DNA from: a virus
Strand: one strand, 5' to 3'
Virus record (IMG/VR): IMGVR_UViG_3300041411_000108
Location: 1 to 23,421 of that record
Length of the DNA: 23,421 nucleotides
Position 1 is the stretch's first letter; each line of letters begins with the position of its first letter. The notes under the pieces were generated by a model. It did not search any database, was not told where the DNA came from, and worked only from the letters and a program-made list of their open reading frames with translations. The position numbers and the translations under genes were made by a program. Positions 14,966 through 19,734 of the stretch are shown here, piece after piece.

Positions 14966-15193
14966 TTATTTGTCGCCGGACTGCCCGGCCTTCACGCATT
15001 CCGATTCCTGCACCAGCAGGCGGTTGATTGCCGCTGTAGCGCTCTCGCCTTTGGCCTCAAGATCCGCCAGAGACTCAGCGGCTTCAGGCTGCAACTTGAT
15101 CCCGCTCAGCCTCCGACCGCCACGGGCCAGCAGGTTCTTTTCGTGCGCCTCGACGCGACTGGTCGATGTCTTTGGTGGTTTCGTGGCATTCAT
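14966..15193 (-). CDS. Small putative ribbon-helix-helix DNA-binding protein
   Basis: A 75-residue basic protein. RRLSGIKLQP (about 27-36) could be the beta strand, EAAESLADLEAKG the first helix and SATAAINRLLVQE the second helix of an Arc/MetJ-type ribbon-helix-helix fold. The N-terminus is Lys/Arg-rich. The ribosome site is weak (GGAC). Size and fold suggest a local repressor or an excisionase-like factor, and it lies between int and attP next to a palindromic operator candidate. This is inference from pattern alone. Confidence 0.65.
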   Translation of the reverse strand: MNATKPPKTSTSRVEAHEKNLLARGGRRLSGIKLQPEAAESLADLEAKGESATAAINRLLVQESECVKAGQSGDK

Positions 15194-15209: not shown

Positions 15210-15407
15210 TCATTGACTGAGAAGCTGGGCTAGCGGCTCCAGGTTGCCCAGTCTGGTTTCAGATAGCGCTGACTTCACGATTTCTTTGCTGTAACCCTTC
15301 CCCTCAAGATGCCGAGCTACGCAAAGCTCAAGACGGAACACCCTGTTCGATTGGGTACAGAGCTGTCGCACCAGATCCTTCTGATGCGCTTTCTCGGAGT
15401 CGTTCAC
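15210..15407 (-). CDS. Small hypothetical protein
   Basis: A 65-residue, helical, basic protein (MNDSEKAHQKDLVRQLCTQS). The start is taken as GTG at 15407 because it overlaps the preceding stop as GTGA, matching the coupling seen through this cluster; an in-frame TTG at 15422 is the alternative. No clear ribosome site. No family recognised. It ends 16 bases before the next gene. Confidence 0.6.
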   Translation of the reverse strand: MNDSEKAHQKDLVRQLCTQSNRVFRLELCVARHLEGKGYSKEIVKSALSETRLGNLEPLAQLLSQ

Positions 15408-15580
15408 CGGCTGAAATCGCAACGGTGATTAAGGATCGCGTTATCTGCTGCGTTCTGTTCTTCAACCAGGTTGCGGACGATCTGCATGGCCGCTTCCCAT
15501 TCAGCAGTGCCGAAGGTCAGGGCGTTTACTGATGCGCGAGCTGCTTTCAGTGCTTTGTCGGCGGCTTTGAAGTTGGTCAT
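15404..15580 (-). CDS. Small hypothetical protein, first gene of attP-side cluster
   Basis: A 58-residue helical protein starting MTNFKAADKALKAARASVNA. GGAG lies 9 bases before the ATG at 15580. An upstream in-frame start at 15652 would lie upstream of the predicted transcription start, so the shorter form is chosen. It is the first gene after the putative promoter at 15629-15657 and is coupled to the next gene by GTGA. No function recognised. Confidence 0.68.
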   Translation of the reverse strand: MTNFKAADKALKAARASVNALTFGTAEWEAAMQIVRNLVEEQNAADNAILNHRCDFSR

Positions 15581-15628
15581 ATCGGCGTGCTCCGTAGTTC
15601 GGTCGGCACCGCGCCTCCCATGGAATGA

Positions 15629-15657
15629 ACTATAGGATAGTTGGTGCACCAACGCAA
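15629..15657 (-). promoter_or_regulatory. Putative promoter of the attP-side gene cluster
   Basis: On the minus strand, TTGCGT (-35, 15652-15657) and TATAGT (-10, 15629-15634, one base from consensus) are separated by exactly 17 bases. Transcription would start near 15622, leaving a leader of about 40 bases before the 58-residue protein gene. It lies just beyond the integrase stop, so the eight downstream genes could be expressed without int, for example from a quiet prophage. Predicted by eye only. Confidence 0.55.
15640..15653. promoter_or_regulatory. Perfect 14-bp palindrome, candidate operator
   Basis: GTTGGTGCACCAAC is a perfect inverted repeat placed between the predicted -35 and -10 elements, overlapping the edge of the -35. 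A repressor bound here would block RNA polymerase. The binder is unknown; candidates in the window are the double-HTH protein (19243-19734) and the ribbon-helix-helix-like proteins. Confidence 0.6.
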
Positions 15658-15670
15658 GAAGAGAATTCGA

Positions 15671-16840
15671 TTATCCGTGCTTTCTGATTTCAGCCTGCTC
15701 AGGACTCCCAAACATCGCCACCGCCTTATCCCCCGACGAGTCGCCATCGGTTGGAATCCAGCGCCCGTATACCCTGGCAATCATGAGCCAGGATGCGTGC
15801 CCCATCTGCTTGGCCACCCACATCGGATGCTCGCCCGCGCTCAGCATCATGGATGCGTAGGTGTGCCGGGTCTGGTACGGGTTCCGGTAGCGCACGCCTG
15901 CCCGGCGGATGGTCGGCGTCCACAATGATTTACGCAGCTCCTGGTCGCCGTTGAATGCCCGGTTGTGCCTCGGGTCGTGGAAAACGGCCTTCCCCTCTAT
16001 ATAGGTGTGCTCGCGCTGGGCCTTCAGCGCCTCGAACGACATGGGCAGCAGGCGCACACTACGAACCCCGGCCGCTGTCTTCGGCGTCTCTGCCTCGCTG
16101 GCCGCCGCCGTCAACCCTCGCGACACCCTCACCTCTCCTCGATGCCAGTCAATGTCGCCCCACTCCAGCGCGACCAGCTCCGACGTGCGCAACCCAGTCC
16201 AGAAGGCGAACTGCAACAGGTTCCGATATTGCCCGGTCGCTGCCGCCAGAATTGCTCGCTGCTCATCTGGACTGAAAGGGTCGATCTCGTCCTCGGTGCG
16301 CGGCTTGCCCTTCACTGAATACGTCCAGCCGGCCAGTGGGTTCGATTCGATCAGCTCGTCATCCACGGCATCGCTCAGGGCCGAGCGCAGGCAGCTTTGC
16401 ACGTTGGCCAGCCGCTTGTTCGTCGCCGACATCTTGGCCATGGCCGCCTTGACCTCCTTTCGCGTAACAAGCGCTAGTGGGAGCGAGCCCAGCGCCGGGA
16501 CCAGCACCCCAGAAACGATCTTGCGGTAACCATCCAGCGTGGACGCCTTCAGGATGCCGGCCTTGCGCTCAAGCCATTCATCCAGGTACTGGCCCAGCGG
16601 CACCTGGCCGGACTGGCCGACAGCCGATGCCGCGCGCTTCGACCGTGGGAACGCCTCGGCATAGTCAAACTCGCCCCGGTGAATCGCCAGATCGATGGAA
16701 GCCTTCTGCTGCTGCGCCCGCTTCAGGTTGGCCGGCGTAGGCTCCAGCGGCAGGCGCTCGCGACGCTGAACGCCATCCAGCATAAAGCTGATCTCGATAC
16801 TGCTTTTCGATGCCGCACGCACCCCGCGCTTCGCAGCCAT
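15671..16840 (-). CDS. int: Tyrosine site-specific integrase
   Basis: A 389-residue phage integrase that recombines attP with the host att site. AGGGG lies 6 bases before the ATG. The N-terminal part (residues about 12-66: ISFMLDGVQRRERL to FDYAEAFP) is the DUF3596-type arm-binding domain. Residues about 80-165 are the SAM-like core-binding domain, and 185-360 the catalytic domain with R218 (TGLRTSEL), K254, R325 with H326 (YQTRHTYAS), H348 (QMGHAS) and nucleophile Y358 (ARVYGRW). The usual first His of the HxxR box is Tyr (Y322), as in other members of this group I know. The probable attP lies about 2.7 kb away on the left, with eight small genes between, which is further than usual. Confidence 0.95.
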   Translation of the reverse strand: MAAKRGVRAASKSSIEISFMLDGVQRRERLPLEPTPANLKRAQQQKASIDLAIHRGEFDYAEAFPRSKRAASAVGQSGQVPLGQYLDEWLERKAGILKASTLDGYRKIVSGVLVPALGSLPLALVTRKEVKAAMAKMSATNKRLANVQSCLRSALSDAVDDELIESNPLAGWTYSVKGKPRTEDEIDPFSPDEQRAILAAATGQYRNLLQFAFWTGLRTSELVALEWGDIDWHRGEVRVSRGLTAAASEAETPKTAAGVRSVRLLPMSFEALKAQREHTYIEGKAVFHDPRHNRAFNGDQELRKSLWTPTIRRAGVRYRNPYQTRHTYASMMLSAGEHPMWVAKQMGHASWLMIARVYGRWIPTDGDSSGDKAVAMFGSPEQAEIRKHG

Positions 16841-18320: not shown

Positions 18321-18716
18321 TTACTCCTGGCTGAGGATGTCGAGCTGGGCTTTGGCGCATTCGTCGGGACCGTGCGGCAGGCGGTTCGGTTCGATTACTA
18401 CGTACTCACTGTCATCACCGTGATGACCGGCTTCACGTCGCGACTCGTTGTCGAACTTGTCGCGCAACGATTTGCTGATCTTGATTTCGTGGCGCGGAGG
18501 CTTCAGGAACTCGATCAATTCGGCGTCAGTCATGGCGTCCATCTTGAGGATGGCCAGCTGCAGGACTTCGCTGATTTCTTCGGTGCTTGATCGCTCCCGG
18601 ATGCGGTCCATCGCCTGGTGAATCCCGGGCCGGACCTTGTGTCTCAGTTCGCGCTCGTCGTACTGCTCGCGCTTCTTCGCGGCCTTCGCTGACCGTTCCT
18701 TCGTGCTCTTCGCCAT
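18321..18716 (-). CDS. Putative ribbon-helix-helix-like phage protein
   Basis: A 131-residue basic protein. The start MAKSTKERSAKAAKKREQYD at 18716 matches the start of a hypothetical family I know from Pseudomonas phages; the ribosome site GGAAGG is 9 bases upstream. The ERELRHKVRP strand, HQAMDRIRERS helix and TEEISEVLQLAILKM helix (about 21-60) could form an Arc-like DNA-binding fold. A second PPRHEIKISKSLRDKF segment follows. It lies one base after the previous stop. A DNA-binding role is plausible but unproven. Confidence 0.7.
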   Translation of the reverse strand: MAKSTKERSAKAAKKREQYDERELRHKVRPGIHQAMDRIRERSSTEEISEVLQLAILKMDAMTDAELIEFLKPPRHEIKISKSLRDKFDNESRREAGHHGDDSEYVVIEPNRLPHGPDECAKAQLDILSQE

Positions 18717-19242: not shown

Positions 19243-19734
19243 TCATTCGCACGAAGACGGCCCTGGGAAGGCGATGCGGTAGGTGTTCACCAATCTGTCC
19301 ATCCTGTGCCAGCCGATGCCGATCTGATTCCGCACCTTGAGTTTGCTCAGGCCGATCTGTGCCAGTGCATTGATCCGCTCGACCAGCGCCTTATCCTCAC
19401 CTGGCTTTACATGCCTGCTGCCCGGGTTGCGCCCGGCACCATTGCGCAGACTGATCCCCGACAACTTGCAGACCTTCGTTATCCGGTCCTGAGAAATTCC
19501 CATGTGCTGGGCCATTTCCGTCTTGCTCATCGTTTCGCTCAGCGTTCGGATCTGATCGGCCATCTGTCGTAGCTCGATCTCTTCCTGCGTCAGCCGAGGC
19601 TCGATGCGCGGCGGTAGGGGTTTGAATTCGAAGGTTTGCAGCACGTCGATCTTGCCGCCAGAGCGCAGGAACGCTTCTTGAGCAGAGGCCAGTGAAGATC
19701 GGTCAATAATTCGGAGGTCGTTGTATTGGTTCAT
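19243..19734 (-). CDS. Double helix-turn-helix protein, putative regulator
   Basis: A 163-residue protein. The ATG at 19734 is preferred over 19761 because the latter lies inside the terminator hairpin. Residues about 70-94 (SKTEMAQHMGISQDRITKVC) are a good helix-turn-helix, and about 128-153 (LSKLKVRNQIGIGWHRMDRL) a second one. The N-terminal 60 residues are acidic and helical near the end (EEIELRQMADQIRTL). It is the first gene after the terminator that follows the exonuclease, so its expression may depend on read-through or antitermination. A control role in the downstream leftward genes is inferred. Confidence 0.72.
   Translation of the reverse strand: MNQYNDLRIIDRSSLASAQEAFLRSGGKIDVLQTFEFKPLPPRIEPRLTQEEIELRQMADQIRTLSETMSKTEMAQHMGISQDRITKVCKLSGISLRNGAGRNPGSRHVKPGEDKALVERINALAQIGLSKLKVRNQIGIGWHRMDRLVNTYRIAFPGPSSCE

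Follow-up and report, generated by a model that had tools for sequence, protein, structure and literature searches.

Anti-CRISPR (acr) genes offer few features by which to recognise them, and an adjacent gene for an HTH repressor is often what leads to them. In the immI region of phage P22, the ribbon-helix-helix (RHH) repressors Arc and Mnt act on the promoter Pant, the operator being located between the -35 and -10 elements. For Aca1-10, a model has been described in which a strong promoter gives a burst of cargo at infection and the repressor subsequently excludes RNA polymerase (PMC9410906). The 12 known Acas used by AcaFinder are all described as having an HTH domain, while Aca13, which has none, is described as not validated (PMC9765179). 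RHH repressors of plasmids have been set against the HTH repressors of phages, and the gene set controlled by the plasmid repressor Reg was likened to acr operons in the same work (PMC8708921). The passages on RHH proteins and anti-CRISPRs in PMC11065993 and PMC8708921 describe no phage RHH Aca.

The window, i.e. the whole stretch of viral DNA analysed here, is a 23,421-base IMG/VR virus record. Its plus strand carries tail and lysis-type genes, which are followed by minus-strand genes including int (15671-16840), which encodes a tyrosine integrase and forms the left border of the cassette described below. Directly behind the int stop codon, a -35-like hexamer TTGCGT (15652-15657; TTGC.. is kept in relatives) and a -10-like hexamer TATAGT (15629-15634; likewise kept) are separated by a 17-base spacer, and the position of this pair, proposed earlier in a sequence-only reading, was confirmed on the minus strand. 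The same reading had placed a perfect 14-bp palindrome within the spacer. The palindrome, GTTGGTGCACCAAC (15640-15653), is perfect and is proposed as an operator from its sequence and from the relatives; it does not lie wholly within the spacer, as it also takes in the final two bases of the -35 hexamer. TTGCGT agrees with the sigma-70 -35 consensus at 3 of 6 positions only, and hence the promoter is absent from a generic promoter scan; its conservation in relatives is taken as the better evidence. Transcription is expected to start near 15622. The constant leader (15577-15621, minus strand) has an ATG 7 nt behind the -10 hexamer, which could open a 14-codon leader ORF overlapping the first cargo start. 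An ATG 6 or 7 nt behind the -10 was seen in 25 of 31 loci, i.e. in most relatives, and there translation may be leaderless or involve a short leader ORF; ATGG.. accompanies the RHH-like repressor and ATGCC.. the Aca1-type repressors. A second inverted repeat, AACTATCCTATAGTT, lies over the -10 (15628-15642) and is kept in the scanned promoters of type A (see below). No tRNA or known RNA element was found in the window.

The operon order is promoter, at least one small gene that is not the same in all relatives, and then a small repressor gene. In the window, the first cargo gene (15404-15580, minus strand) encodes 58 amino acids and the second (15210-15407, minus strand) encodes 65 from a GTG or 70 from an upstream TTG; both are candidate anti-defence proteins, the former by its operon position and the latter with a homolog in L118. 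The last gene (14966-15193, minus strand) encodes a protein of 75 amino acids that is RHH-like by sequence pattern only and is proposed as the cognate repressor from covariation and distant homologs. Its position and size fit those of an Aca, although none of the window cargo before it matched a known Acr; the inverted repeat in the core promoter that marks Aca operons is present. The first cargo protein gave no match in Pfam, PHROG or NCBIfam. Likewise, no cargo of the A operons matched a known Acr, though NCBIfam returned no Acr family for 10 cargo proteins with known Acrs among them and thus cannot exclude Acrs. Relatives of the 58-residue protein occur in L002-L006 behind other promoters, those of L003, L004 and L006 having ACAAG..CTTGT repeats; in L002-L004 and L006, they occur without the RHH-like gene.

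An integrase search yielded 80 viral loci. With L040 and L052 omitted because their matches stop before the end of int, the sequence behind the gene was read for the other 78. Thirty of these loci and the window carry one of eight palindrome types behind int: A (GTTGGTNNACCAAC, 12 loci including the window), B (TAGGAACNNNGTTCCTA, 7), C (GACAAACNNNGTTTGTC, 2), D (GACATACNNNGTATGTC, 2), E (TAGGAAANNNTTTCCTA, 3), F (AGTCCCT..AGGGACT, 2), G (TAGGATCNNNGATCCTA, 2) and H (GTAGCTACA.., 1). The int of palindrome-bearing loci is 84-98% identical to that of the window. TTG.. and TATAGT-like hexamers are fixed in classes A to E, the -10 of L027 being TAAGAT, and between these classes both palindrome arms change at once while the palindromic symmetry stays; this is the behaviour of an operator that tracks its protein. 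In class F (L036 and L039), the promoter holds an operator-like repeat, and no repressor gene was identified behind it. No DNA relatives of the promoter region were found in the phage collection, where the wider region matched int only; in genome_contigs, integrases were at most 74% identical over the gene and no integrated close relative was found. The integrases of L043-L081 (72-75% identical) commonly end in GGGACGCCGGTTCAAATCCC, which resembles a tRNA 3' end and may be an att core.

The 14966-15193 protein was found in 11 of the 11 A loci with enough sequence, the window included, and in none of the 19 loci that have another palindrome. In L015 and L023, the sequence stops too close behind the promoter for a repressor to be seen. 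The 11 A loci do not count as 11 independent cases, since L017 is nearly identical to L018 and the first cargo gene of L029 is also that of L035. The sequence-only reading had named loss of the palindrome in relatives keeping the genes as an outcome that would speak against it, and the opposite was observed: the A palindrome is kept with this protein. Operator and repressor type match one to one across the relatives, with palindrome class equal to repressor class in 27 of 27 loci having both (0 of 20,000 shuffles reach 27); the repressor classes received their names once the loci had been inspected, classes with a single member contribute nothing to the agreement, and near-copies occur among the loci.

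Homologs of the protein were detected at 14 viral loci at first and at 19 with a wider alignment, and further ones on one P. monteilii plasmid, in 1 of 398 genomes of one genus and in 1 of 398 genomes of the family; none was found in the phage collection and none was confirmed in genome_contigs. The upstream operator was scored in 11 homolog loci outside group A, L120 being left out as its contig begins 353 nt upstream. In 10 of these 11, a TTGC-type promoter contained GTTRG-N4-CYAAC in exact or near-exact form. It is exact and in a TTGCGT promoter in seven (L119, L121, L284, L266, L267, L280 and L286), and this includes L286, the repressor homolog of which is 49% identical. Three have altered operators, as judged by eye: L279 (GTTAGTTAAGCAAC and GTTGATTAACTAAC), L285 and L287 (two copies of TTGGTGCACC). 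At the remaining locus, L288, which looks degenerate, no operator was found upstream of the homolog. The pattern TTGCGTTRGN4CYAAC occurred 0 times in 1,195,873 bases of comparison loci on either strand. Because they are independent of the window's close relatives, the operators of distant homologs are regarded as the strongest evidence for a link between this protein and the palindrome.

Some of these distant loci differ in arrangement. In L267 (3860-4190), L280, L279, L285 and L287, no cargo precedes the RHH-like gene, which is by itself behind tail genes and has two copies of the operator around its promoter; of these loci, L267 is a plasmid that carries phage tail genes. In L286, the second cargo protein shows, over its first 35 residues, a weak match to the ParD antitoxin family that falls short of the curated cut-off, and hence the operator partner is not unique in this locus.

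The sequence pattern of the 14966-15193 protein resembles RHH proteins by eye. In its model (pLDDT 79, pTM 0.53), a first helix leads into a short hairpin, after which come two further helices. None of 13 members had a Pfam match at E up to 10, PDB-sequence and fold searches gave no family either, and the models match no solved fold; it is therefore claimed that the repressor is not a recognised HTH protein. The strand-helix-helix order fits an RHH protein, a fold that is only suggested here. A weak profile match to YhfG (E 0.34) was also recorded.

The repressors of classes B, C, D and E belong to a single HTH family but differ in their recognition helices. Profile A1, made from B, D and E members, matched Aca1 in the PDB with E values of 6.5e-33 to 8e-33 over positions 3-69; homology to Aca1 is thus found for these relatives' repressors and not for that of the window. 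The class C repressor was found with the same profile, and the viral scan with A1 gave 67 loci. When palindromes in promoters were searched for upstream of the Aca1 genes proper, ATTAGGCACAATGTGCCTAAT was recovered, a sequence contained in Aca1-binding DNA as published (PMC9410881). The cargo of operons with ATTAGGCACAATGTGCCTAAT includes AcrIF1 and AcrIF3, and that of L169, with the operator TAGGAACATTATTCCTA, is AcrIE4-F7. Since known Aca1 operons show the same layout, the anatomy of the window is that of an acr-aca operon. The more two repressors differ in the recognition helix, the more their half-sites differ (Mantel r 0.706, 0/5000, 25 distinct pairs); for the N-terminal segment, the correlation is lower (0.260, 99/5000). 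In the operator count, 66 of the 67 Aca1-type loci were used, L175 being lost to the anchor pattern, and an operator of the patterns used was found in 40, of which that of L187 (1666 nt upstream) is doubtful. From the 26 loci without one, 19 were re-read, and in 14 of these a promoter-like TTG..TA...ATG encloses a different centre of lower symmetry. Aca1 relatives with the recognition helix WPGFRNYL (L142, L144, L145, L153, L155, L158, L160-L162, L164 and L165) have the promoter core TTGTGG..TTGTTACCCA, which is likely another operator class.

The two types of operon use the same site. A right flank at and behind the repressor 3' end, GCCGGGCAGTCCGGCGACAAATAAACGAAGGGGTGAGTGATGAGC, is common to most A-type and Aca1-type loci, the exceptions including L115, L128, L129 and L132; in the window, the start of this flank, shared by cassettes with unrelated repressors, was placed by flank comparison at 14966-14989 (minus strand). 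L030 represents the empty site: it has neither promoter nor repressor, and 18 nt separate the int match from the flank ACGAAGGGGTGAGTG. The first cargo genes of 13 A operons belong to 10 unrelated families, and 13 first-cargo families were counted in 17 operons with a window-type repressor. L266 encodes a fusion in which the repressor domain is joined to another that is 63% identical over 68 residues to the cargo of L137, an Aca1-type operon in which this cargo stands alone. On account of this match, A-type and Aca1-type operons have common cargo at least once; no other cargo link between the two types was found among 92 cargo proteins. The L266 fusion recalls the Acr-Aca fusions in print (PMC8934645). 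A new, non-HTH (probably RHH) family of Aca-type repressors, which is exchanged freely with Aca1 and in which each repressor and its own operator are the bookends of a cargo slot, appears plausible, at slightly better than even odds.

That the palindrome arose by chance in an unregulated promoter is scarcely credible. About two perfect 14-bp palindromes are expected per window and three of at least 14 bp were observed against a shuffle mean of 2.0, so the palindrome alone is unremarkable; however, one centred in a TTGNNN-16/18-TATANT promoter occurred in 1 of 300 shuffled windows, and chance is already contradicted by the presence of a palindrome, often in other letters, at the same place in relatives and by its covariation with the repressor. 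It is also improbable that the site is the operator of a lysogeny (CI-like) repressor or another phage regulator, with the 14966-15193 protein as a passenger of the cassette. Such a regulator would be usual on a promoter behind int, and the 19243-19734 protein has a weak HTH match. However, this protein and that of 18321-18716, both named in the sequence-only reading as candidate binders, were found alongside all palindrome types but H, which has a single locus; they do not follow palindrome class and were rejected as binders, which leaves from the three candidates the 14966-15193 protein, found only with this palindrome. Moreover, GTTGGTGCACCAAC is present in a single copy in the window, GTTGGTNNACCAAC occurs once per contig at zero mismatches in each of the 11 group-A contigs searched, and each of 10 B/E contigs has one copy of its palindrome (none in L030, searched alongside). 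As there is one copy per contig, even in contigs of about 50 kb, a repeated operator of a general repressor was rejected. Distant homologs of the 14966-15193 protein in unrelated surroundings, such as a plasmid, also keep the half-site.

An autoregulated toxin-antitoxin module, with the cargo as toxin and the RHH-like protein as antitoxin and repressor, would be in line with RHH antitoxins, which autoregulate through operators in their own promoters; the likeness of aca and antitoxin operons has been remarked by AcaFinder and others. Antitoxins, however, fit their own toxin, and the fixed pairing was not found here, the 10 unrelated families of first cargo standing against one nearly constant repressor type, which makes the module very improbable. 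An autoregulated accessory operon for lysogenic conversion or superinfection exclusion, rather than for counter-defence, is unlikely to a lesser degree: the cargo genes are small, vary widely and occupy the accessory end of the genome, the cargo of L116 looks like a membrane protein, and the A-operon cargo is without a known Acr match, but the same slot carries Aca1-type cassettes and one cargo domain is common with an Aca1-type operon.

It is concluded, with a probability of about 0.78, that the window holds a negatively autoregulated anti-defence operon of acr-aca design with a repressor that is not a recognisable HTH protein. The palindrome is very probably the landing site of the small repressor from the same operon, and the earlier proposal that a repressed promoter gives the cluster behind int a switch of its own is supported and fits all the comparative evidence. 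During infection, the free promoter would drive the leader, the small cargo (one or two genes) and, last, the 75-residue protein, which would bind GTTGGTGCACCAAC between the -35 and -10 elements, probably as a dimer, and block RNA polymerase at the promoter core. The cargo, which would counter host defence, would thus be made in an early burst and later kept low, and every dynamic step is drawn by analogy with Aca1-10. Operator, promoter, cargo and repressor move as one cassette, from the int 3' end to the common flank, that can be replaced by one with an Aca1-type repressor and another operator.

If this holds, searches for HTH genes beside acr genes miss every anti-defence gene in such operons. 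The searchable operator TTGCGTTRG-N4-CYAAC and the non-HTH repressor family would then be a new handle on anti-defence genes and point to a set of candidate phage counter-defence genes. In addition, the pairing of repressor and operator types at a single locus is a natural experiment in how DNA-binding specificity changes with its site.

The Aca1 acr operons of Pseudomonas phages resemble the window operon in having a palindrome in the core promoter, variable small cargo and a terminal small repressor, and the slot behind int in close relatives holds true Aca1-type cassettes. They differ in that the window repressor has no homology to Aca1 by any search made, in the half-site, which is TAGGCACA and kin for Aca1 and GTTRG for the window type, and in the cargo, where the window has no known Acr. 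P22 immI combines RHH repressors with an operator within a phage promoter, but it controls an antirepressor and has no cargo slot. In the early anti-defence regulons described for archaeal viruses, a conserved regulatory sequence precedes unrelated small anti-defence genes; unlike in the window, the promoters are archaeal, Aca8 is a wHTH protein and RHH domains occur in predicted anti-defence genes (PMC11065993). Reg of p576 and the clade II pLS20-family plasmids acts in Gram-positive conjugative plasmids, with operators at the promoter sides; as described, it is an RHH repressor of autorepressed early establishment genes, which resembles the role proposed for the RHH-like window protein (PMC8708921).
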